A stretch of 36,019 bases of DNA from Desulfuromonas sp. GTDB taxonomy: Bacteria; Desulfobacterota; Desulfuromonadia; Desulfuromonadales; UBA2294. Of the stretch, positions 2,942 to 13,584 are shown one piece after another. The first letter of the stretch is position 1; each line of letters begins with the position of its first letter. The position numbers and the translations under genes were made by a program. The notes under the pieces were generated by a model. That model was not told the DNA's origin. It did no database searches and was given only the letters and a program-made list of their open reading frames with translations. Where the stretch lies: the NCBI GenBank assembly GCA_002868925.1, contig PKTZ01000068.1, forward strand, positions 1-36,019. Direction: 5' to 3'.

Positions 2942-3060
2942 TTGCAATTTTGCAAAATAGCAGTTTTGTTGTTTTGCATTGCTGCAAAGTGCCGCTAAAC
3001 AGGGGCCTGGCGCCTGATTTCTCATTTTTTTAATCTCTCCAATTCCTTGCATTCCTGCAA
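2942..3060. promoter_or_regulatory. Three upstream activator sites, TTGCA-N4-TGCAA
   Basis: Three 14-bp inverted repeats occur at 2942-2955, 2974-2987 and 3047-3060, with spacers ATTT, TTGC and TTCC. They lie roughly 100-215 bp upstream of the -24 element of the sigma-54 promoter at 3158, the usual range for enhancer sites of NtrC-family activators. The same motif occurs three times upstream of the SatP-like gene (10109-10245), next to an NtrC-family regulator gene. The remainder of the 2835-3236 gap is AT-rich, without a convincing gene. Confidence 0.75.
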
Positions 3061-3157
3061 AAGCGACATTTGTTATTTTTTTACATAGTGGGGGTTTTGT
3101 CTGTTTAAGTGCTTGAAATAGCGTAGAAAAATAAAAAATCAAAACGCCGTTATTTTT

Positions 3158-3173
3158 TGGTATGCAGCTTGCC
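3158..3173 (+). promoter_or_regulatory. Sigma-54 (-24/-12) promoter of the OFA transporter
   Basis: TGGTATGCAGCTTGCC has GG and GC exactly 10 bp apart, as required for RpoN promoters (consensus TGGCAC-N5-TTGC). Transcription should start near 3184, about 50 nt before the ATG at 3237. Confidence 0.75.
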
Positions 3174-3236
3174 AATACCTTAACCCAAGCGCGGCAAAAA
3201 ACGAATCGCCGCTATTAACCAACAGGAGAATCAATC

Positions 3237-4685
3237 ATGGCTTCGAAGCATCCGGACAAACAGAAAAGGGGAGTTGCCGACATCAATGTCAACTGGCCGC
3301 TGAACCACCGGCTGCGGATGATCATGATGCAACGATTGGAAACATCATATCTTCAAACCAAGGAGGAGAGCATGAGTACACAGAATTCTTTACTGCGCGG
3401 CTGGATCGTCGCACTCGCCGGTGTCGGCATCAACTTGGCCCTCGGCGTTCTTTACGCCTGGAGTATCTTCAAGGGTGCAATCGTCGACTCGATCAACAAG
3501 GGTGGCGAAGGTGCCTTCACCTGGGATGTCTCTTCGGCGAACGACCCGTATGCCGTAGCCTGCCTCGCATTTGCTTTTTCGATGATCATTGCCGGCAAGA
3601 TGCAGGATAAGCTGGGTCCGAAGATTACCTGTATTATCGGCGGCCTGATGGTCGGCGGTGGGTTCATTCTCTCTTCGCAGAGCAACGACTACTGGACCTG
3701 GATCATCGGTTTCGGTTTCCTCGTCGGCTCCGGCATGGGTTTCGGCTACTCGGCCGCGACCCCGCCGGCGCTGAAGTGGTTCCCGACCAAGATGACGGGC
3801 CTGATCGCCGGTATCGTCGTCTCCGGTTTCGGCCTCGCTTCACTCTACATTGCCCCGCTGGCAACCTACCTGCTCAATACCTACGGCCTGCAGCAGGCGA
3901 TGCTTTACTTCGGTTTCGCCTTCATGGCAGTGGTCAGCCTGCTCGCCCTGCTGGTTTCCAACCCGCCGGAAGGTTACGTCGCCAACCTGGTCGATACCCC
4001 GTCTACTGCGACGGCTACCGCACCCAAGGTTGAGAACAACGATCTCAGCCCGCGCCAGCTCTTCAGCCAGGGCAAATTCTACGCTCTCTGGGTCTGCTAC
4101 TTCATCGGTTCCGGTGCCGGCCTGATGGTTATCGGCAGCGCCAAGGGTATGGCCAAGGCGAGCATGGGCGAGATGGCATTCCTGGTTGTCGCCATCATGT
4201 CGATCGGTAATGCTGCCGGGCGTTTGATCGCCGGCGTCGTCTCCGACAAGATCGGACGTGCCAATACCCTGATGATCATGCTGGTCTTCCAGGCCGCTCT
4301 GATGTTCAGCTCCATCTTCGTCTTCCAGCAGAGCAACGCAAGTCCGGTTGTGGTCGTCCTGCTGGTCAGCTTTATGGTCTTCAACTACGGAACCAACCTC
4401 TCGCTCTTCCCGAGCTTCACCAAGGATCTGTGGGGCATGACCCACTTCGGCATGAACTACGGCATCCTGTTCAGCGCCTGGGGAATCGGCGCCTTTGCCC
4501 TGGTTCGTATCTCCGAGGTGCTGAAGGCTCGCACCGGTGATTATACTCTCTCCTTTGCCGTGGCCGGCGTCCTGCTGCTGGTCGGGGCGATGATGGCTTC
4601 GACCCTGCGCAAGGCCCAGCCGGTCGTTGCAGTCGACGCCGTCGAGGAAGAGGATCTGGTCCTGCAGAAAGCCGGGATCGAATAA
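3237..4685 (+). CDS. MFS transporter, oxalate/formate antiporter (OFA) family; probable carboxylate carrier
   Basis: The core protein is a 12-helix major facilitator with OFA-family text: GWIVALAGVGINLALGVLYAWSIF at the first helix, GFLVGSGMGFGYSAATPPALKWFP, GRLIAGVVSDKIGR between later helices and FNYGTNLSLFPS. OFA members move small carboxylates such as oxalate, formate or lactate; the substrate cannot be read from sequence. There are two in-frame starts. The ATG at 3237 has AGGAG 8 nt upstream and adds 45 hydrophilic residues with coding-like GC-rich third positions. The ATG at 3372 has a perfect AGGAGG 5 nt upstream and gives the usual family N-terminus (MSTQNSLLRG). The upstream sigma-54 promoter and activator sites suggest control by the regulator at 10253-11620. 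The gene is monocistronic, closed by a terminator at 4746. Confidence 0.88.
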   Translation: MASKHPDKQKRGVADINVNWPLNHRLRMIMMQRLETSYLQTKEESMSTQNSLLRGWIVALAGVGINLALGVLYAWSIFKGAIVDSINKGGEGAFTWDVSSANDPYAVACLAFAFSMIIAGKMQDKLGPKITCIIGGLMVGGGFILSSQSNDYWTWIIGFGFLVGSGMGFGYSAATPPALKWFPTKMTGLIAGIVVSGFGLASLYIAPLATYLLNTYGLQQAMLYFGFAFMAVVSLLALLVSNPPEGYVANLVDTPSTATATAPKVENNDLSPRQLFSQGKFYALWVCYFIGSGAGLMVIGSAKGMAKASMGEMAFLVVAIMSIGNAAGRLIAGVVSDKIGRANTLMIMLVFQAALMFSSIFVFQQSNASPVVVVLLVSFMVFNYGTNLSLFPSFTKDLWGMTHFGMNYGILFSAWGIGAFALVRISEVLKARTGDYTLSFAVAGVLLLVGAMMASTLRKAQPVVAVDAVEEEDLVLQKAGIE

Positions 4686-4745
4686 AGTACCAACTCCATC
4701 TCAATGCGCTTCAAAAGTATCCGTGCCCAAGGATACCTGATGCTA

Positions 4746-4774
4746 GCCCCGCCTAACGGCGGGGCATTTTTTTT
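4746..4774 (+). terminator. Rho-independent terminator after the OFA transporter
   Basis: GCCCCGCC-TAAC-GGCGGGGC (4746-4765) is a perfect 8-bp stem followed by A and eight T residues. Confidence 0.92.
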
Positions 4775-4871
4775 GCGCAAAAGGAGGATAGAAACTTTTC
4801 CGAGCCGGGAGAGGTGGGGATAATATCGTTTCTGTTGTAAACTGGATGAAGATAGACATAGGAATAGACCT

Positions 4872-5486
4872 GTGAAGAACAGAACGGTATCTGCTCATAA
4901 AGCTGCCTTGAAGATCGCCTCGATTTATGGCCTCTTCTCTATATTCTGGATTGCTTTCTCGGACCAGGCTCTTTTCTATCTCGTCCAGGATCCCGAGGTG
5001 TTGACGCAATTACAGATGCTCAAAGGATGGATCTTTGTCATCGTAACCGCGGGTATCGTCTATGCGCTGCTTTTGCGTGAGTTGACAGTCAGTAAGAATA
5101 TCGAGGAGACCCTCGGTGATCGTGAAAAAAGACTCGGTCTTCTTTTTGACCAGGCAGCCGATGCCATCTATGTTTCCCGCCTCGACGGGCAGCTGGTCGA
5201 GTTCAACCGGCAGGCGTGCCAGGAGTCGGGGTACGATGCTGAAGAGCTGGTCTGTTTGAATGTGGCCGACATCGATGCCGATATGGAGACGGTGGAAGAG
5301 TTCAGACTGTTTGCCAGCAAGCTGGAATCGGAGAAGCCGGTGACTCTATTGTCGCATCATCGACGCAAAGACGGGACGGTTTTCCCGGTTGAAATTACCA
5401 TTTCTCTGGTCGATTCTCCTTCAGGGAAGCGGGTCTTCGGGATCGCTCGGGACATTTCCGAGCGTGCGGTAGCTGACTCCCTGTAG
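4872..5486 (+). CDS. Short membrane PAS-domain protein, possibly a truncated sensor
   Basis: The 204-residue product has two hydrophobic helices (about residues 17-36 and 52-70) and then one PAS domain (about 88-200) with RLGLLFDQAADAIYVSRLDGQLVEFNRQA and a PAC-like end (RRKDGTVFPVEITISLVD, GIARDISERA). In related bacteria this arrangement normally continues into a histidine kinase or GGDEF domain. Here the frame stops with TAG right after the PAS domain, and about 30 bp later the long intergenic repeat begins. No kinase remnant was found downstream. It may be a truncated sensor or a stand-alone PAS protein that partners another kinase. The start codon at 4872 may be TTG- or GTG-like in strength; the ribosome binding site (AGGAATAG) is modest. 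Confidence 0.75.
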   Translation: MKNRTVSAHKAALKIASIYGLFSIFWIAFSDQALFYLVQDPEVLTQLQMLKGWIFVIVTAGIVYALLLRELTVSKNIEETLGDREKRLGLLFDQAADAIYVSRLDGQLVEFNRQACQESGYDAEELVCLNVADIDADMETVEEFRLFASKLESEKPVTLLSHHRRKDGTVFPVEITISLVDSPSGKRVFGIARDISERAVADSL

Positions 5487-5518
5487 ATAGTTGTAATATT
5501 TTCTTATCAAGTTCAAAA

Positions 5519-5905
5519 CCGTCGGGTCCCGGCCCGACAACCGGCGTCATTTTCTTTGTCAGCGTGACAAAGAAAACGAAGCAAAAGAAAGCACGCGCCT
5601 GGCGGCGGGCACTGCATTCGCGGTTGCTGTTGCCGCTTATCACCGACAATACAAATCTCGTAAGTAGCATCTTTTGTGGCTCTCTAGCCTGAAACGGGCT
5701 GCGCTGTTCGACGGTGCTGGTGATTTCAGCAGTATTGATTTGGCTTTTCGCCCCGTGGCGGAGCGCCGACGAACCCGGGGACACTTCCCTGAACTTCGGG
5801 AAGTGTCCCCATCCGAAGTTGCGAGTTTTTTTGCTGCCGGTTTTCATCTGTGCGAACGAGGGAACAGCGCAGGGTCGGGGCGGAGTGTGAGGGCGAGACC
5901 TCACG
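5519..5905 (+). repeat. Long dispersed intergenic repeat, copy A
   Basis: This block matches the reverse complement of 26783-27214 over most of its length. Shared landmarks include CCGTCGGGTCCCGGCCCGAC at one end, GGGCACTGCATTCGCGGTTG, TGTGGCTCTCTA, CGCCCCGTG-CGGAGCGCCGA and CCGGTTTTCATC-GTGCGAACGAGG. No convincing gene lies in the 5487-6053 gap. A short peptide frame (FFVSVTKKTKQKKARAW) is shared by both copies, which could mean an eroded coding relic. Copy A contains a 34-nt palindrome absent from copy B, so that palindrome looks inserted into the older repeat. A hairpin with stem GTGGG/CCCAC near 6013-6030 lies at the far side of the gap. Confidence 0.75.
5777..5810. repeat. 34-nt REP-like palindrome, copy 1
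   Basis: GGGGACACTTCCC and GGGAAGTGTCCCC flank an 8-nt centre. It is the reverse complement of copies at 5955-5988 and 18323-18356 and sits inside the long repeat copy A. Confidence 0.85.
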
Positions 5906-5954
5906 GTTTCCCTTTTCTAAAATCCCAGACCAAGATCAGGACCGTCGTAGCTTC

Positions 5955-5988
5955 GGGGACACTTCCCGAAGTTCAGGGAAGTGTCCCC
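5955..5988. repeat. 34-nt REP-like palindrome, copy 2
   Basis: Arms GGGGACACTTCCC and GGGAAGTGTCCCC, identical to the copy at 18323-18356, including the asymmetric centre. Only about 145 bp separate it from copy 1, which has the opposite orientation. Confidence 0.85.
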
Positions 5989-6053
5989 ATTCGATCATTC
6001 GACAACCGGGAGTGTGGGTCGGGACCCCACGATTTTGATTCTATAGCCGAAAT

Positions 6054-7409
6054 TCAAATCTCCTTAATCAACGCCCGGGCCGCAGTCTGCACCGGATCCC
6101 ATACCGGCGAGAAGGGCGGAGCATACCCGAGATCGAGACCGATGAGATCCTCAACTGACATACCGGCGGTCAAGGCGGTTGCCACCGTGTCGATCCGTTT
6201 GGCTGAACAGCAATCGCCGACTATCTGTCCACCGAACAGTCGCCCGCTTCGTTTCTCGGCCAGCAGCTTCACCGTAATCGGCCCGGCTCCCGGAAAGTAT
6301 CCGGCCCGGGTTTTTGCTTCAATGGTAGCGCTTACGTATTTCCAGCCGAGGCGATCCAATTCCTTTTCCTGGAGTCCGGTCCGGGCGACCTCGATCGAGC
6401 AGATCTTGCTGACCGCAGTGCCGATCACGCCCGGAAAGATGGCGGAGCCACCGCCGATATTGGTTCCGGCAACCAGTCCCTGCTTGTTGGCGATCGTGCC
6501 GAGGGAGATGTGAACCTCCTCTTCGGTCAGACGATGGCGACTGGCGGCGCAGTCACCGGCGGCCCAGATGTTATCGCAGCTCGTGTTCATCTGCTCATCG
6601 ACCTTGATTGCATCCTTGATCGTCAGTTCGAGACCGGCATCTTTTGCCAGTCCGGAATTCGGTCGGGTCCCCATGCCGAGAATGACGATATCGGCCGGCA
6701 GGGTTCGCCGGTCGGTGACGACCGCCGTGACCTGTTTTTCGTTGGTTTCGAAGCCGCGCAACTCTTCCTTTCGATAAAGCTTGACGCCGATCTCTTCGAG
6801 AGCCTCGGAAACCAGTTTCCCCATATCGGGATCGAGCGTCTCCATGACCTGCTCGCCGCGCTGCACCAGGGAGACGTCGAGTTTTTGGCGGACCAGCGCC
6901 TCGGCCATCTCCAGGCCGATATAGCCTCCACCGACGATCACCGCTTTTTGCGGCCGGTTGTCGGTGAGAAATTTCTGGATTTTTATGCCGCTCGCCAGTG
7001 TCGAGAGACCGAAAATTCCGTCAGCCAGTTCCCCTGAGATATCGGGACAGAACGGGCGGGCTCCGGTCGCGACCAGGAGTTGATCGTATGGCTCGTACCG
7101 GCTTGTTCCATTGTTGCGGTCGACGACTTCGACCCGTTGCTTGTCGCGATCGATCGCGACCACTTCGTGTTGCATCTGCATGTCGATACTGAGCTTTTCG
7201 CGGAAGCGTTCTGGCGAGCGGACGATCAGGTTGTCAGCTTTTTCGACCAGGCCGGCGATCTGGTAAGGCATGCCGCAGGCAGAGTAGGAGGAGTAGTCGG
7301 TTCTTTCGAAGACGACGATTTCCCGGTCCGGCTGCATTCTTCTTACTTTCGATGCCGCGGCCATTCCGGCGGCATCTCCTCCGATGACGACCAGTCGATT
7401 ATTTTTCAT
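6054..7409 (-). CDS. FAD-dependent pyridine-nucleotide disulfide oxidoreductase, CoA-disulfide-reductase-like
   Basis: The 451-residue protein has an N-terminal FAD-binding motif (VVIGGDAAGMAAASKVRR), a second dinucleotide motif for NAD(P)H (AVIVGGGYIGLEMAEAL) and the FAD-contacting IWAAGDCAA. It has a single redox-type Cys45 in YSACGMPY, the position of the catalytic cysteine in CoA-disulfide reductases, NADH oxidases and persulfide reductases, rather than the CXXXXC pair of glutathione or lipoamide reductases. The C-terminal dimerisation domain is present (LGYAPPFSPVWDPVQTAA). The likely reaction is NAD(P)H-dependent reduction of CoA disulfide, persulfide or oxygen. The start at 7409 has GGAG upstream and begins at the FAD motif; an upstream in-frame ATG at 7442 adds 11 residues without family likeness. 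It is monocistronic and divergent from the patatin gene. Confidence 0.88.
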   Translation of the reverse strand: MKNNRLVVIGGDAAGMAAASKVRRMQPDREIVVFERTDYSSYSACGMPYQIAGLVEKADNLIVRSPERFREKLSIDMQMQHEVVAIDRDKQRVEVVDRNNGTSRYEPYDQLLVATGARPFCPDISGELADGIFGLSTLASGIKIQKFLTDNRPQKAVIVGGGYIGLEMAEALVRQKLDVSLVQRGEQVMETLDPDMGKLVSEALEEIGVKLYRKEELRGFETNEKQVTAVVTDRRTLPADIVILGMGTRPNSGLAKDAGLELTIKDAIKVDEQMNTSCDNIWAAGDCAASRHRLTEEEVHISLGTIANKQGLVAGTNIGGGSAIFPGVIGTAVSKICSIEVARTGLQEKELDRLGWKYVSATIEAKTRAGYFPGAGPITVKLLAEKRSGRLFGGQIVGDCCSAKRIDTVATALTAGMSVEDLIGLDLGYAPPFSPVWDPVQTAARALIKEI

Positions 7410-7539
7410 GCTATCTCCACGATATTGATTAGGATTCGTCAAAACGACAAATGTAGTTTATCATATTGAAATTAACGCAATTCCGGACGACACTGAGGAC
7501 ATGGAGCCGGCCGGGCTACGTTTGCAAGGGAGACGCACT

Positions 7540-8421
7540 GTGAGCGATACTGACAAAAAAATTTCGCTGGTCCTCGGCAGCGGCGGGGCGAGGGGGCTGG
7601 CCCATATCGGCATCATCCGCTATCTCGAGGAGAGCGGCTACCGGATCGAGTCGATCTCCGGCTGTTCGATGGGGGCGCTGATCGGCGGTATCCACGCTGC
7701 CGGCAAACTGGACGAGTATGAAAAATGGGTGCTTGATATCGACAAGCTCGACATCTTTGGCCTGCTCGATTTCTCTTTCGGGCGTACCGGGCTGGTCAAG
7801 GGTGACAAGCTGATGAAAAAGCTCAAGGAGATGATCGGCGAAACTGAGATCGAAGATCTGCCGATCAGCTTTACGGCGGTCGCCGCCGACATCGTCCGCG
7901 AGCGTGAGGTCTGGTTCAGCAAGGGGCCGCTCTACAGCGCCATCAGGGCGTCAATTTCATTGCCGCTCTTTTTTACCCCTTATAAACACAAGGGGGTGAA
8001 CCTGATCGACGGAGGCCTGTTCAACCCGGTTCCGATCGCGCCGACCTACAGCGACATGACCGATATGACCATCGCGGTTAATCTTACCGGTTTTCACGAC
8101 CATGAGATCGAGCAGAACGGGCCGGTCCCCTCATCGGAAGAGAACGGCATGGCGAGCTTCTCCGAGAAGATCAAGAGCTTCATGACCCGCTTCGTCCCGA
8201 ATGAACCGGAAGAGGGTGACGACTGGGATTACTTCTACGTGGCGAGCCAGTCCTTCGATGCGGTGCAGGGGGTTATTGCCCGGCAGAAACTGGCGGCTCA
8301 CCCACCCGACGTGCTGATCGAAATCCCGCGTAATGCCTGCGGCATCCTCGAATTCGACCGGGCACAAGAGATGATCGACCTCGGTTACCGCAAGGCGAAA
8401 GATACCCTGGGGAGTCTCTAG
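7540..8421 (+). CDS. Patatin-like phospholipase (RssA/YlbK type)
   Basis: This 293-residue cytoplasmic serine hydrolase has the three patatin signatures: the oxyanion-hole GSGGARG at residues 13-19, the nucleophile Ser43 in GCSMG, and the catalytic Asp157 in DGG followed by LFNPVPI. The Ser-Asp dyad hydrolyses acyl esters, probably membrane lipids; the natural substrate is unknown. The start is read as GTG at 7540, preceded by GGGAGA, which puts the protein directly at the conserved KKISLVLGSGGARG. A longer frame from 7501 adds 13 residues of no family likeness. The stop TAG overlaps, on the opposite strand, the stop of a tiny two-CXXCH gene. Confidence 0.88.
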   Translation: MSDTDKKISLVLGSGGARGLAHIGIIRYLEESGYRIESISGCSMGALIGGIHAAGKLDEYEKWVLDIDKLDIFGLLDFSFGRTGLVKGDKLMKKLKEMIGETEIEDLPISFTAVAADIVREREVWFSKGPLYSAIRASISLPLFFTPYKHKGVNLIDGGLFNPVPIAPTYSDMTDMTIAVNLTGFHDHEIEQNGPVPSSEENGMASFSEKIKSFMTRFVPNEPEEGDDWDYFYVASQSFDAVQGVIARQKLAAHPPDVLIEIPRNACGILEFDRAQEMIDLGYRKAKDTLGSL

Positions 8422-8582
8422 TGCCTGATGTGGCACTTGGCGCAAGGAAAGGTGTCGATGTCCTGGTCGTTGTAGTGGCACTTCTTGCAGTTCATCTCGT
8501 CCTTGTCCCAGACCGGTTTGCTGAATTGCGGCATGATTTCAGATTGCGAGCCCCGACTTCTTCTTTCGATTCTCTTTTCCAT
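8418..8582 (-). CDS. Tiny two-CXXCH protein without signal peptide
   Basis: A 54-residue frame begins at an ATG with AAAGGA 8 nt upstream. It has a basic N-terminus (MEKRIERRSRGS), a linker with PQFSKPVWDKDEMN, then CKKCH (32-36) and CAKCH (47-51), ending in IRH. CXXCH motifs normally bind haem c, but that needs export to the periplasm and no signal peptide is visible. The alternatives are a cytoplasmic zinc or iron-sulfur ribbon made of the four cysteines, or a cytochrome with an unrecognised leader. The last three bases overlap the patatin stop on the other strand. About 200 bp separate it from the upstream small membrane protein gene, so cotranscription is uncertain. I do not recognise a named family. 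Confidence 0.7.
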   Translation of the reverse strand: MEKRIERRSRGSQSEIMPQFSKPVWDKDEMNCKKCHYNDQDIDTFPCAKCHIRH

Positions 8583-8786
8583 CGCATTTTCCTTTCATTT
8601 CATAAAAGCAGTCATATCTGAAATTTTTACCGATTTTCAGCATGTTGCAAGTAGAAGAGGCTGCTTTTCGTATTTTTGAGGTACAACGCAGATCGGTGAA
8701 ATGTGCCGAAAAGGTATTTTGCCACCCTGAATCGGCGGGCTGTGGCGATGGAATTTTGAAAAGTGGAGAGTCGTAAAAAGGTCGAG

Positions 8787-9158
8787 CTACGGCATGGCCA
8801 TGATCGGCATCTCGTTGTACTCGGGACCGAGCTGCAGCAGGTCGAGATAGGTCATGTCGGGCGGCTTGATCAGCAGCAGGGTCATAATCGCGATGACCGC
8901 GGTCGCAGCCACCCAGTTTAGTACGGCAGTACGAAATGCCCAGTCGATTTCGGGCTTGTCGGTCTCTTCCTCTTCCTTGGCCGGGAGCCGGGCTGCCATC
9001 TGGCGCATGATCTTCCCCGAAAAAAGGAAGAAGATTGCCGAAACGGCAAACTGCGGCAGGATTTCGATGGAGACCTGACCGCTGGCGAGCATGGCACCGT
9101 AAAATGCCATCGCTCCGAACCCGAGCAGGGTTAATTGTCGGCTTAGATTCGCTTTCAT
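8787..9158 (-). CDS. Small membrane protein in the SatP-like operon, function unknown
   Basis: The 123-residue product has three hydrophobic segments: about residues 8-26 (LTLLGFGAMAFYGAMLA), 30-48 (EILPQFAVSAIFFLF) and 79-98 (NWVAATAVIAIMTLLLI). An acidic cytoplasmic-looking loop (AKEEEETDKPE) lies between the last two. The gene starts 21 nt after the stop of the SatP-like gene, so the two are almost surely cotranscribed from the sigma-54 promoter at 10011-10026. It could be an accessory subunit of that transporter; this is inference from position only. No family was recognised. The 8583-8786 gap beyond it holds no feature I can support. Confidence 0.75.
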   Translation of the reverse strand: MKANLSRQLTLLGFGAMAFYGAMLASGQVSIEILPQFAVSAIFFLFSGKIMRQMAARLPAKEEEETDKPEIDWAFRTAVLNWVAATAVIAIMTLLLIKPPDMTYLDLLQLGPEYNEMPIMAMP

Positions 9159-9179
9159 CGTATCGTCCCTGCCGGCAGA

Positions 9180-9959
9180 TTACGTTTTTGCCTTTTTCCT
9201 GTCAAGCTGCAATCCCCTTTCGGGAATGGTGACAAAATACTTCAGCCCGGCCATCAGGCCGGAGAGACCGGTAATGGCCCCGGCCGACCAGGCGATCGGT
9301 TGTACCAACGCGGGGGTGAACGGGATCGCCGCCAGCAGGAAGATGAACAGCGCTCCGAGGCCGTAGAAAACGCGGCAGGAACGGTTGACCTGTACCCCCG
9401 CCTCGAGCGGGATCAACCCGAAGAAGCCCCAGAGCACGAGATAACCCGACATCGGTAGCGGCGCTGTCGAGCTGCCGAGGCCGTAGGCGGGGAGAATGTC
9501 AAGCGCCAGCAGCGAGGTCCAGAACAGGCCACCGCCGATGAACATGATTCCCCGGACCGCTCTTCTCTTGAGGGCGGCCATGCCGGTAAAGAGCTGGAGC
9601 AGGGAGGCGGTGAGCATGATCAACAGGGGCAATTGCACCTTGTCACCGAGCAAGCCCGCCTTGAACAGGGTGTAGCAGAGCATCGACATCCCGCCGCCGA
9701 GCAGGCCGAGAGCCATGCTCTTCCGTTCAGCCATGGAACCCTGGGCTTCCGGCAGTGAAACCGGGATTCGGACCTGGCCGATGGTGTCGGCATCGTTGTC
9801 GAGCCGGACCAGCAGCTCGTTGAACTTGTTGCACGATTTGAAGTCGGATGAGCAGTATTTGCTGATCATGCTTGCATCATGCGACGTAATATACCCGCAA
9901 CCGACATCGCAATAATCTTCATTGCATCCGTAGTAGGGACATGCTGCATGTAATGTCAT
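9180..9959 (-). CDS. SatP/YaaH (GPR1/FUN34, AceTr) family transporter with Cys-rich N-terminal domain
   Basis: From about residue 75 the 259-residue protein has six hydrophobic helices in the AceTr pattern: SMALGLLGGGMSMLCYTLF, GGGLFWTSLLALDILPAYGL and GYLVLWGFFGLIP match in order the LGLMGFGMT, GSFWLT and LGLWG regions of E. coli SatP. Family members carry acetate and succinate. Unusually, residues 1-70 form a soluble Cys-rich domain with Cys at 7, 12, 17, 21, 36 and 43, including YCSSDFKSCNKF, which resembles metal-binding modules rather than a transporter tail. The start is set at 9959 (AGGA 7 nt upstream) because the upstream ATG at 10004 lies at or before the expected start site of the sigma-54 promoter. 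The following small membrane protein gene shares the operon. Family assignment is by motif and topology. Confidence 0.72.
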   Translation of the reverse strand: MTLHAACPYYGCNEDYCDVGCGYITSHDASMISKYCSSDFKSCNKFNELLVRLDNDADTIGQVRIPVSLPEAQGSMAERKSMALGLLGGGMSMLCYTLFKAGLLGDKVQLPLLIMLTASLLQLFTGMAALKRRAVRGIMFIGGGLFWTSLLALDILPAYGLGSSTAPLPMSGYLVLWGFFGLIPLEAGVQVNRSCRVFYGLGALFIFLLAAIPFTPALVQPIAWSAGAITGLSGLMAGLKYFVTIPERGLQLDRKKAKT

Positions 9960-10010
9960 GGCGTGATCCTCTTTGCTGGAGGTTTCGAAATGTTCTGTCA
10001 ACATCTATTC

Positions 10011-10026
10011 AGCAAAGGCCGTACCA
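10011..10026 (-). promoter_or_regulatory. Sigma-54 (-24/-12) promoter of the SatP-like operon
   Basis: On the minus strand TGGTACGGCCTTTGCT matches the RpoN consensus TGGCACG-N4-TTGCW at all but one position, with GG and GC 10 bp apart. Transcription should start around 10000, which decides the SatP-like start at 9959. Confidence 0.85.
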
Positions 10027-10108
10027 ACTTCTTGTTATGTTAAGTAGAAAAAAGCCCGGTTTTTGGGCGCTTTTCGGGGAGAGAGGCTTCTTCCCGTGAT
10101 ACCCGTTT

Positions 10109-10245
10109 TTGCAGAGCTGCAAAAATGGGCTGTTGCGCGGTCGGTGTCCCTTTAGGTGGAAGAAAAATCATCTTTAAAAGCGGACACTTAGGTGTTTTTA
10201 GTTGTTTTTTGCAGCTCTGCAAATAGATTTCTTGCAATGCTGCAA
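10109..10245. promoter_or_regulatory. Three upstream activator sites, TTGCA-N4-TGCAA
   Basis: Sites lie at 10109-10122 (spacer GAGC, extended to a 9-2-9 palindrome at 10106-10125), 10209-10222 (spacer GCTC) and 10232-10245 (spacer ATGC). They are about 85-220 bp upstream of the -24 element at 10026 and begin 8 nt past the stop codon of the NtrC-family regulator. The arrangement mirrors the cluster at 2942-3060. Confidence 0.78.
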
Positions 10246-10252
10246 AAAATAA

Positions 10253-11620
10253 TCAGTCGATACTCCCTTTGTCGATACCATGTTTTTTCAACTTGCGGTA
10301 GATGGTCGCCATGTTCATGCCGGCTTCCGCCGCCGCCGCCTCGACGTTGCTGCCATGCTTGCTCAGCAGCCTCTTTAAATACTCCGTTTCGAAATTGGCC
10401 AGGGCCGAGGCGTAGTCGGAATCGGAGATCGGTTTGACGTTTTCATCAACTTCGATGAACTGGGCTAGGGTCGGCAGCCCGATGTAGGAGTCGGTGGTGA
10501 GGGTGATCGCCGCTTCGATGACGTTGCGCAGTTGCCGGATATTACCCGGCCACGGGTACTCCCTGGCGGCGGCAAGCGCTTCCGGGGTCAACCCCTTGAT
10601 TTCGGTGCCGAACTTTTTGTTCTGCTCACCGATGAAGTGGTTGATCAGCAGGGGGATGTCCTCCTTGCGCTGACGCAGTGGAGGGAGGTGGAGGTTGATA
10701 ACGTTGAGCCGGTAGAAGAGATCCTCGCGGAATTCTCCCTTGTTGACCGCCGCCTGCAGGTCGGAGTTGGTCGCCGAGATGATCCGCACGTCGACCCGGG
10801 TCGGTTCCCGTTCGCCGAGCCGCATGAATTCATGTTCCTGCAGGAAGCGGAGCAGGGTCATCTGGATGTTCATCGGCAGGTTTCCGACCTCGTCGAGAAA
10901 AAGGGTGCCGCCGTTGGCCTCTTCGAGCAGACCGCGCCGGTCTTCGTCGGCGCCGGTGAAGGCCCCCTTGCGATAGCCGAACAGTTCGCTCTCCAGGATA
11001 TTGCCGGGCAGGGCACCGCAGTTAAGGGCGACGAAGCGGCTCTTGGCGCGCGGCGAGTTATAATGGATCGCCTGGGCGATCAGCTCCTTGCCGGTTCCCG
11101 ATTCGCCGGTGATCAGCGCCGAGGTGTCGCGGACCGCTACCTTCGCGACCTTGCCCAGCAGTTGCTGCAGCGGATCGGAGGTACCGATGATGTTGTCGAA
11201 GCAGAAGCGGCCGGAGAGCTCCTCCTTCAGCTCGCGGTTTTCGTCGACCAGCTGTTGGTGCTGCAGGGCATTCTTTACCCGGTAGAGTAGTTCGTCCGGT
11301 TCGAACGGCTTGGTCAGCATGTCGTAGGCGCCCTGGCGGAGGGCATCGATCGAGAGTTCGACCGTGGCAAAGGCGGTGATGACGATCACCGGAATCTCGG
11401 GATCGCGACCGCGGATGTGTTTCAGCACCTCGATGCCGTCCATTTCCGGCATCTTGATGTCGGTGATGACCAGGTCGTAGGTGCCGGCAGTGAAATCGGC
11501 GACCGCCTGCACCGGCCGGGTGTAGCTTTTGGTCTGGTAGCCGCTGTCCTTGAGGATCGCCTCCATCATCCGACAGAGACCTTCTTCGTTGTCGATCAAC
11601 ATGATCCGTGCTTTTGACAT
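10253..11620 (-). CDS. Sigma-54-dependent response regulator, NtrC family
   Basis: The 455-residue protein has a receiver domain (1-120, phospho-acceptor Asp54 in ITDIKMPEMDG), an AAA+ domain with Walker A GESGTGKE, the sigma-54-contacting GAFTGA loop, Walker B GGTLFLDEV and the arginine-finger region REDLFYRLNV, and a C-terminal Fis-type helix-turn-helix (NVEAAAAEAGMNMATIYRKLKKHGI). It is therefore a complete enhancer-binding activator. The start ATG overlaps the stop of the kinase gene (TGATG), giving translational coupling. TTGCA-N4-TGCAA inverted repeats lie just past its 3' end and upstream of the OFA transporter; both targets have -24/-12 promoters. I infer that this protein binds those repeats and activates both transporters. 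Confidence 0.95.
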   Translation of the reverse strand: MSKARIMLIDNEEGLCRMMEAILKDSGYQTKSYTRPVQAVADFTAGTYDLVITDIKMPEMDGIEVLKHIRGRDPEIPVIVITAFATVELSIDALRQGAYDMLTKPFEPDELLYRVKNALQHQQLVDENRELKEELSGRFCFDNIIGTSDPLQQLLGKVAKVAVRDTSALITGESGTGKELIAQAIHYNSPRAKSRFVALNCGALPGNILESELFGYRKGAFTGADEDRRGLLEEANGGTLFLDEVGNLPMNIQMTLLRFLQEHEFMRLGEREPTRVDVRIISATNSDLQAAVNKGEFREDLFYRLNVINLHLPPLRQRKEDIPLLINHFIGEQNKKFGTEIKGLTPEALAAAREYPWPGNIRQLRNVIEAAITLTTDSYIGLPTLAQFIEVDENVKPISDSDYASALANFETEYLKRLLSKHGSNVEAAAAEAGMNMATIYRKLKKHGIDKGSID

Positions 11621-13584
11621 CAGATAACCTCCCGGGTTATCGGCAATTCGATGGTTATGGTTGTTCCTTCTTGTGGCTTGCTGGCGATGCTGAGCAGCCC
11701 GCGGTGTTGCTCGATGATCTGCCTGGTGATCGCCAGACCGAGGCCGGTACCGCGTGCTTTGGTGGTAAAGAACGGCTCGAAGATCTTCTCTTGCTCCTCG
11801 GCCGGGATGCCGCAGCCGGTATCGGCGACACTGATAATGGCCCTGTCTTCGTCACGTTTCGTGCTGATGAGCAGTTCGCCCCCTTCCGGCATCGCCGCAC
11901 CGGCGTTTAGGATCAGGTTGATTGCAACCTGCCGGATCTGGTCGGCGTCTATCGCGACCGGCGGCAGCTCCGGGTCGAAGTCGTACTCGATCTCGACCTG
12001 GCGCAGGTCGGTGTGGTTGGCGGCGAAATCGGCGATCTGTTCGAGCAGTTCGTTGAGGTCGGTTTCATGGAACTCGGGTTGCGGGGTGCGCGCATAGTTG
12101 AGCAGATCCTGGACAATCTTCTTGCAGCGTTTGCTCTCCCGCTTGATCTCGTTGATGTAGTGGTAGTTCGGATCTTCCGGATCGAGCTTCTTTTCCAGAT
12201 AGCCGGCGAAGCCGAGGATGACCCCGAGCGGGTTGTTGATTTCATGGGCGACGCCGGAGGAGAGGATACCGAGAGAGGCCATCTTCTCCTGCTGCGCCAG
12301 GTCTGATTCCAGCTTTTTGTTGCGGCGCAGCATCTGGGTCATGCGGTTGAATGTGGTGGCGAGTTCGCCCAGCTCGTCCTGGCTGTTGACGACCATGCGC
12401 CGCCGGAAATTGCCCGACTTGATACTCTTTACCACCGAGGTCATATGCTGGATCGGATCGGAAAGGACCTTGGCGGCGAGAAAGACCATAAACGCCGAGA
12501 TCAGGGCGGCAAAGAGCGAGATTGTACCCATGCTCTGCAGGATTCTCCCCTTGATCAGGTTCGCCTCGGCGTAGAACTCGTCTTCGTACGAGCCGACGGC
12601 GACAATCCAGTCCCACGGTTCGAAGTGGACATAACGGGCGATCTTGCGTCGCGGTTTCGGATCGGTCGAGTTTTTCCAGTCATAGGTAATCCAGCCGTCC
12701 TTCTTGTCGGTCATGATCTTGACGAACGGTTTGCCGTAGGAGTCGATGACGTCGCGAATATTCTCTCCCTCGGCATCGGGGTGGATGACCAGGGTGCCGG
12801 AGCTGTCCATGCAGTAGATGTAGCCGGTGGCGCCGACTTTCTTCGATTTGATCTTCTGCTTCAGTTTTTCAAAGGCCCGCTGTTCAAACTGCGGGTCCTC
12901 GTAAGTCTCCTCGAGATAACCGCCGGTGGCGATGATCCAGTTCCACGGCTTGAAATAACGGTAGGTGACCATCTTGCGGCGTGGTTCGGTGTCACCGAGT
13001 TGCTTGTTGCGCCAGGGATAGATCGTGGTCAGGATTTCGCCCGGTTCGGCGGCGGGCGCCGCTTTGAGCATCTGCCGGATAAAAAAGTTCCCTTCCTCGT
13101 CCTGCTCGTCGGCGATGTTTTCCCCTTCGCGGGCGATGTGAACCACCAGGTCGCCTTTGCCGGTCATGGCGTAGATGTAACCGCTCTCGCCGACCTGAAC
13201 CCGTTTCAGGATGTCGCGGGCGGCACTTTGGGCCGCCGCCTGGGAGATGCCACGATCATTGGCCTGCCGCTGCTCGGCTTCGACCAGGCTGTAGGCGAGG
13301 TCGGTCAGGGTCTGCAACTCCTCGCGGACGCTTTCCTTTTTGTCTTCCTTGTAGAGGTGGAACTGCTGGTAATGGGCATCGAGCAGGTCGAGGCTGAACT
13401 GCGCCAGGTGGTCGAGGTCGTCCATGCTGGTCTGGGTGATGCCCCGTTGCGCCTGCTGGTAACCGATAAAGCCGACGATACTGCCGACCAGGAAGATCGG
13501 TAGCAGCACCAGCGGCAGAACCACCACCATCATTTTCCAGCGGATGCGGAGATTGTTTACGAATTTGAAAAGATGTCGTGCCAT
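11620..13584 (-). CDS. Membrane histidine kinase with two Cache-type sensor domains
   Basis: The 654-residue kinase has a membrane helix near residues 17-43, two consecutive Cache_2-like periplasmic modules (each with a GESGYIYAM/GATGYIYCM motif, a V-IHP/VVHIA strand and a FEPWDWI/FKPWNWI motif), a second helix near 350-372, a HAMP linker, a dimerisation domain with phospho-acceptor His447 in GVAHEINNPLG, and a catalytic domain with NLILNAG, DTGCGIP and GTGLGL motifs. Cache_2 domains often sense small organic acids. It is followed without gap by its NtrC-type partner regulator. Together with the putative targets, a role in sensing an external carboxylate is likely. The ribosome binding site at 13584 is weak. 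The gap 13585-13758 shows nothing I can name. Confidence 0.93.
   Translation of the reverse strand: MARHLFKFVNNLRIRWKMMVVVLPLVLLPIFLVGSIVGFIGYQQAQRGITQTSMDDLDHLAQFSLDLLDAHYQQFHLYKEDKKESVREELQTLTDLAYSLVEAEQRQANDRGISQAAAQSAARDILKRVQVGESGYIYAMTGKGDLVVHIAREGENIADEQDEEGNFFIRQMLKAAPAAEPGEILTTIYPWRNKQLGDTEPRRKMVTYRYFKPWNWIIATGGYLEETYEDPQFEQRAFEKLKQKIKSKKVGATGYIYCMDSSGTLVIHPDAEGENIRDVIDSYGKPFVKIMTDKKDGWITYDWKNSTDPKPRRKIARYVHFEPWDWIVAVGSYEDEFYAEANLIKGRILQSMGTISLFAALISAFMVFLAAKVLSDPIQHMTSVVKSIKSGNFRRRMVVNSQDELGELATTFNRMTQMLRRNKKLESDLAQQEKMASLGILSSGVAHEINNPLGVILGFAGYLEKKLDPEDPNYHYINEIKRESKRCKKIVQDLLNYARTPQPEFHETDLNELLEQIADFAANHTDLRQVEIEYDFDPELPPVAIDADQIRQVAINLILNAGAAMPEGGELLISTKRDEDRAIISVADTGCGIPAEEQEKIFEPFFTTKARGTGLGLAITRQIIEQHRGLLSIASKPQEGTTITIELPITREVI

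Follow-up and report, generated by a model that had tools for sequence, protein, structure and literature searches.

The 36,019-nucleotide stretch of DNA analysed here, from the sediment bacterium Desulfuromonas sp. (assembly GCA_002868925.1, contig PKTZ01000068.1; hereafter the window), very probably contains a compact sigma-54 regulon for short-chain monocarboxylate uptake that is run by an adjacent two-component pair. Copies of the palindrome TTGCA-N4-TGCAA form two clusters, one upstream of an OFA-family transporter gene and the other upstream of a SatP-like transporter gene, and the second cluster lies beside the genes for an NtrC-family response regulator and a sensor histidine kinase. 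The sequences themselves show the sites and promoters, the domain make-up, the conservation, the specific spacing and the co-occurrence described below.

Operator clusters and sigma-54 promoters

A sequence-only reading of the window had reported six repeats, and all six are present as exact copies. Operators 1a (2942..2955, TTGCAATTTTGCAA), 1b (2974..2987, TTGCATTGCTGCAA) and 1c (3047..3060, TTGCATTCCTGCAA) precede the OFA gene. Operators 2a (10109..10122, TTGCAGAGCTGCAA), 2b (10209..10222, TTGCAGCTCTGCAA) and 2c (10232..10245, TTGCAATGCTGCAA) lie between the stop codon of the regulator gene and the SatP-like gene, and hence downstream of the regulator gene. The fuller form of the operator is the 16-mer TTTGCA-N4-TGCAAA, which is exact in four of the six sites (1a, 1b, 2a and 2b) and carries one mismatch, a C at the first position, in 1c and 2c. 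The claim that the 36 kb hold no other copy is true of the window and of the whole assembly, a 2.57-Mb draft in 216 contigs that is 88% complete (G000): the exact motif occurs genome-wide at these six places, in the two promoter regions only, and the reversed-pattern control does not occur at all. Frequent occurrence at random genomic sites, named beforehand as grounds for abandoning the link, was looked for in this count and not found. A first-order Markov model with the composition of the window predicts 0.025 copies of the 14-mer for the window and 1.8 genome-wide, and the probability of at least three sites within one 250-bp stretch is about 1e-12. Looser copies in the window, with two mismatches, number 18 against 12.4 expected; they are at chance level and were dismissed, which leaves the exact sites as the carriers of the signal. 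On other contigs of the same genome there are seven 16-mer sites with one mismatch, one of which follows closely downstream of the match to the RpoN DNA-binding domain, on the contig that carries rpoN.

Each cluster is followed by a -24/-12 promoter, as had been proposed. The element before the OFA gene reads TGGTATG-CAGC-TTGCC (3158..3173, plus strand) and that before the SatP-like gene reads TGGTACG-GCCT-TTGCT (10026-10011, minus strand); both fit the sigma-54 consensus well, and rpoN is encoded in the source genome. The operator centres of the first cluster lie about 117, 190 and 222 bp upstream of the -12 GC, a layout that recurs in relatives. Both in the relatives and in the window, the sites fall within the range of about 80-300 bp upstream of a -24/-12 element that characterizes enhancers for bacterial enhancer-binding proteins (bEBPs).

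The arrangement is conserved well beyond this genome. A scan of contigs from 84,980 species, each represented by a single genome, yielded 29 loci (L007-L033, L039 and L046) with regulator orthologues 57-75% identical, mostly from Desulfuromonadales and Geobacter-type bacteria, and in many of these the exact motif stands beside OFA, SatP-like or Cys-rich genes. In a member of the same genus (G001), the OFA, SatP-like and regulator orthologues share one contig in the order and orientation seen in the window. With orthology set at E<1e-150, the regulator is present in 41 of 57 relatives; the 16-mer is found in 38 of these 41 and in 3 of the 16 others (Fisher P=1e-7, kinship ignored). The 58 genomes together hold 114 16-mer sites, compared with 5 for the reversed control.

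Spacing and position were counted in 121 upstream regions chosen by protein similarity only, as a guard against circularity. The half-sites TTGCA and TGCAA are paired 70 times across a 4-nucleotide spacer and once across all other spacers from 0 to 11. The exact 14-mer lies upstream of 35/56 first genes (OFA, Cys-rich-SatP or Cys-rich) versus 5/65 other genes, and for 33 of those 35 genes the last site is separated from the gene by a sigma-54 promoter, whose -12 element is 95-291 bp away from the site centres. Among the first genes without an exact site, 19 of 21 have a form at most two mismatches from the 16-mer, often of the TTCGCA-N4-TGCGAA type, where shuffles predict 0.7. When 30 motif sites were sampled, one per relative genome, about two thirds preceded OFA or SatP-type genes. 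The genome count, the clustering probability, the relatives and the spacing counts together led us to reject chance as the source of the motif. The strictly N4 spacing and the concentration of sites at first genes led us to reject a generic transcription or repeat element. The link drawn between repeats, regulator and transporters is thus supported by comparative genomics, as it recurs across the 57 relatives with a strict N4 spacer and a sigma-54 promoter in between.

Two further observations concern the reach of the motif. An alpha/beta-hydrolase-like gene lies behind the motif and a sigma-54 promoter in four loci (L098, L099, L100 and L114) and is a probable extra target. The diverged loci L150, L154, L156 and L159-L164 lack the exact 14-mer and mostly have TTCGCA-N4-TGCGAA-like palindromes at matching positions. 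Judged from these sequences, operator and regulator may possibly have co-evolved in diverged lineages.

The regulator, its sensor kinase and the predicted signal

The response regulator (10253..11620, minus strand) has Pfam matches to Response_reg, to Sigma54_activat with a GAFTGA loop and to a Fis-type helix-turn-helix (HTH_8), which is the receiver, AAA+ and DNA-binding set of an NtrC-type two-component bEBP. The kinase gene (11620..13584, minus strand) encodes dCache_2, HAMP, HisKA and HATPase_c domains. These domain matches bear out the NtrC-family regulator and double-Cache kinase that the sequence-only reading had placed beside the second cluster. Of all candidates, the regulator next door is much the most likely to bind the palindrome, in view of its recognition helix, its adjacency, its co-occurrence with the sites and the enhancer geometry. 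The recognition helix, MNMATIYRKLKK (MNMATIYRKLKKYG), is conserved in the orthologues and different in the nearest paralogues.

It is very unlikely that the palindrome is instead bound by another protein, such as an NtrC-family paralogue, a nucleoid protein or an unrelated repressor, while the adjacent pair controls something else. The same genome does encode a paralogue 43% identical to the regulator, three relatives hold 16-mers without a detected orthologue, and binding of the regulator to the sites is deduced from sequence. However, the motif tracks the orthologue and not the paralogues: in six genomes where only a paralogue of about 45% identity reaches the threshold (G006, G018, G026, G037, G039 and G052), the 16-mer is absent. 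Moreover, the distance from the sites to the sigma-54 promoters is that of NtrC-type enhancers, the sites often lie right beside the regulator gene, and the recognition helices of orthologues and paralogues differ.

The sensor region of the kinase (12550..13467, minus strand) is predicted with a mean pLDDT (predicted local distance difference test score) of 88, and in sequence as well as in fold both of its Cache modules match 5G4Y, 4K08 and 4EXO, which are C2/C3-carboxylate receptors. In PscD, the carboxylate is contacted by Tyr90, His103, Tyr143 and Lys156 (PMC5062169). At the corresponding alignment positions, each module of the kinase has Tyr, His, Tyr and Lys, and these residues are invariant in 24/24 aligned sequences. 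In sCache_2 receptors, the His accompanies recognition of pyruvate, acetate or propionate, and Leu at the same position accompanies recognition of L-lactate (PMC12415202). Because both modules keep the His and the carboxylate pocket, the kinase ligand is probably a C2-C3 monocarboxylate of the acetate/propionate/pyruvate class, by a rule that derives from single-Cache receptors. The earlier suggestion of an external carboxylate signal gains support from the intact C2/C3-carboxylate pockets in both modules.

The same regulon could respond to lactate, as in the lactate use governed by LurSR, although we consider this rather less probable than not. The OFA protein scores above the cut-off of an L-lactate family of the major facilitator superfamily (MFS) and resembles SfMCT structures, and lactate oxidation in Desulfovibrio is controlled by the sigma-54 regulator LurR, whose promoter is preceded by three operators (PMC6456213). 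In addition, the His/Leu rule comes from single-Cache chemoreceptors and may fail for a double-Cache kinase. On the other hand, the characterised sCache_2 lactate sensors carry Leu (PMC12415202), whereas both kinase modules and all aligned orthologues carry His, and LurS is a PAS hybrid kinase with no Cache domain reported (PMC6456213).

With acetate, propionate or pyruvate as the favoured class of signal, the following sequence of events can be proposed. An external small monocarboxylate would bind the Cache modules of the membrane kinase, which would phosphorylate the NtrC-family regulator whose gene comes next downstream. Once active, this regulator would bind, as oligomers, the TTTGCA-N4-TGCAAA clusters about 100-290 bp upstream of the -24/-12 promoters. 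The DNA would loop to let these oligomers contact the RpoN holoenzyme, and its ATP-driven opening would switch on the OFA/SfMCT-type and Cys-rich-SatP-like promoters. Regulator binding, phosphorylation, direction of control, ligand and substrates are all predicted in this scheme, whose causal steps are taken from the NtrC family.

Several points weigh against the regulon as we read it. Three relatives have the regulator without an exact 16-mer, and three others have 16-mers but lack the regulator at E<1e-120, one of these (G054) being 91% complete and 6% contaminated. The co-occurrence and conservation counts ignore kinship, and the source genome is a fragmented draft, so further targets may be missing from the list. 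SfMCT takes L-lactate and not pyruvate (PMC6573034); set against the Cache His, which indicates a non-lactate ligand, this preference means that signal and substrate may differ. In Geobacter sulfurreducens, the promoter mapped for the oxalate-formate antiporter gene GSU2490 is of the RpoD type (PMC2725144); if GSU2490 is assumed to be an orthologue, the control may not extend to all relatives. Finally, binding, expression and transport are all predictions made from the DNA.

Transporters and the Cys-rich domain

The gene behind the first cluster (3237..4685, plus strand) was said to encode an OFA transporter, and it can now be assigned to the SfMCT-type MFS monocarboxylate transporters within that family. 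The whole protein passes the NCBIfam SfMCT cut-off (394.5 bits versus 320) and fails that of the oxalate/formate antiporter family TIGR04259 (148.2 bits versus 335), and among solved structures the L-lactate transporter 6G9X comes nearest to it (phmmer E=1.8e-45). Directly downstream, and possibly cotranscribed, lies a gene for a 204-residue PAS-domain protein (4872-5486, plus strand).

Exchangers, among them the oxalate/formate antiporter, belong to the OFA family, and transport by SatP-type proteins can go either way. These general properties favour a view in which the transporters mainly export or exchange carboxylates, as fermentation products or by antiport, and the system senses product accumulation. 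We regard this as unlikely, given the gap between the SfMCT and antiporter scores of the OFA protein and given a Geobacterales member that pairs its Cys-rich cluster with an SSF (ActP-like) symporter and a DUF485-like gene.

The SatP-like transporter gene (AceTr/GPR1-FUN34-YaaH; 9180..9959, minus strand) is divergent and carries an N-terminal Cys-rich domain. Its placement behind the second cluster and the order of gene and sites stand as first described. The listed start of the open reading frame at 10004 does not, as it lies upstream of the expected transcription start; judged from the sequence, translation almost certainly begins with the ATG at 9959, behind a GAGGATC ribosome-binding site. 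The protein scores 49.3 bits against NCBIfam AceTr_1, whose cut-off is 50, and has no Pfam match at 1e-3. Relatives of the fused protein match PF01184 (L007 and L015), and phmmer matches the window protein to the SatP structures 5YS3 and 5ZUG. The SatP/AceTr signature NPAPLGL stands at the start of the first transmembrane segment. The window protein lacks it and reads KSMALGL, and a canonical paralogue in L015 reads NPAPLGL. Downstream, a probably cotranscribed gene encodes a 123-residue protein (8787..9158, minus strand) without a Pfam or NCBIfam match; a similar open reading frame occupies the same place in L008.

The Cys-rich domain itself (9798..9947, minus strand) spans about 50 residues with the pattern CPYY..CDVG..D..C..C. 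It matches no family in Pfam (E<=0.1), NCBIfam or the sequences of the PDB, and its AlphaFold2 model is poor (mean pLDDT 50). The domain may bind metal or respond to redox state. Its occurrences (loci L007-L039 and L117-L164) were collected with a search expression that contained the four Cys and DVG, so the invariance of these residues is partly imposed, while that of the Asp, Pro and Tyr-Ile is not. In a phylum sample it was found in only 18/297 genomes. The domain occurs fused to SatP-like proteins, fused to OFA proteins, or alone, in which case its gene heads a cluster that has two small conserved genes besides; in some Geobacter-type bacteria its neighbour is OFA or an ActP-like symporter. 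Seven Geobacter-type clusters (L014, L020, L021, L023, L030, L032 and L039) begin with a free-standing Cys-rich gene, followed in most by a gene for an 89-residue membrane protein. A conserved protein of about 350 residues is encoded in all of them but L021, where it was not in the stretch read; the L032 copy has no Pfam match. The L032 cluster continues with OFA, and the Geobacterales cluster L014 with the DUF485-like gene and the SSF symporter mentioned above.

Some fusions are more elaborate. In two other families, OFA fusions contain a HisKA domain (PF00512, above cut-off) between the Cys-rich domain and the transporter, without a HATPase domain. Such Cys-rich-HisKA-OFA fusions occur in L159, L161, L162, L163 and L164, and a regulator orthologue lies next door in the fetched stretch in all except L162. 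OFA fusion genes also have a strong internal Shine-Dalgarno sequence and ATG before the MFS domain in 20/25 cases, versus 10/398 control Met codons; extended OFA genes with the internal start include those of L009, L011, L012, L093, L107 and L109. The OFA protein of the window, which is without the Cys-rich part, keeps the linker and the internal start: AAGGAGGAG-AGC-ATG (window 3360-3374), with the ATG at 3372, stands right before the MFS domain. This conserved internal start suggests, at the level of sequence, that one OFA gene may give two protein products. It is a tentative possibility that the regulon transporters, which are of the unrelated SatP-like and OFA types, are themselves signalling or regulated proteins, with uptake and two-component signalling physically coupled through the four-Cys module, the HisKA domain and the internal start, the last of which would yield the transporter both with the module and without it. 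Greater novelty lies in the Cys-rich module and in the HisKA-transporter fusions, which hint at an undescribed coupling of transporters to redox or signalling state.

Relation to known carboxylate-responsive systems

In sediments and on electrodes, acetate and other small acids largely sustain the Desulfuromonadia, which comprise Geobacter and its relatives. For this group our analysis supplies a defined operator sequence, TTTGCA-N4-TGCAAA, together with a candidate regulator, a candidate sensor and a list of targets, and the same locus can be tested in culturable relatives such as Geomonas, Oryzomonas and Pelotalea. By the literature searched, outside of which lie most subscription journals, the regulon, its operator and its member genes appear to be new, and no monocarboxylate-uptake regulator was found for Geobacter or Desulfuromonas.

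The DctB/DctD pair exerts sigma-54 two-component control over C4-dicarboxylate uptake. MifS/MifR does so for alpha-ketoglutarate uptake (PMC4482717), and with LurSR (PMC6456213) as a further case, control of carboxylate uptake by this route is already known. DctB/DctD and MifS/MifR share with the present system carboxylate sensing, an NtrC-family regulator and sigma-54 transporter promoters; the system described here differs from both in its monocarboxylate-type Cache pocket, its transporter families and its operator. Desulfovibrio LurSR also has a sigma-54 response regulator beside a kinase and three operators upstream of a sigma-54 promoter (PMC6456213, PMC3333781), acts on a monocarboxylate pathway with additional permeases and is conserved across an order. 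The LurR motif is 16 bp long (PMC6456213). In contrast, LurS is a hybrid kinase with three PAS domains, where we find a double-Cache kinase without a receiver domain, and LurR targets the por/lactate oxidation operon with lactate permeases, where we find OFA, SatP-like and Cys-rich genes. Neither the oxidation-operon target nor the PAS hybrid kinase that would place the pair among the LurSR systems was found.

The sensor resembles PscD, Adeh_3718 and the Vibrio parahaemolyticus receptor 4EXO, whose fold and Tyr/His/Tyr/Lys contacts recur in both kinase modules (PMC5062169), but those receptors bear a single Cache module on a chemoreceptor, whereas here two stand in tandem on a histidine kinase. 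CrbS/R and RpuS/R likewise place acetate or pyruvate uptake and use under two-component control (PMC9100948). Their SLC5/STAC kinases fuse a transporter-like sensor to the kinase, whereas the present system uses a separate Cache kinase, and in some of its relatives it is the transporter itself that carries a HisKA domain.

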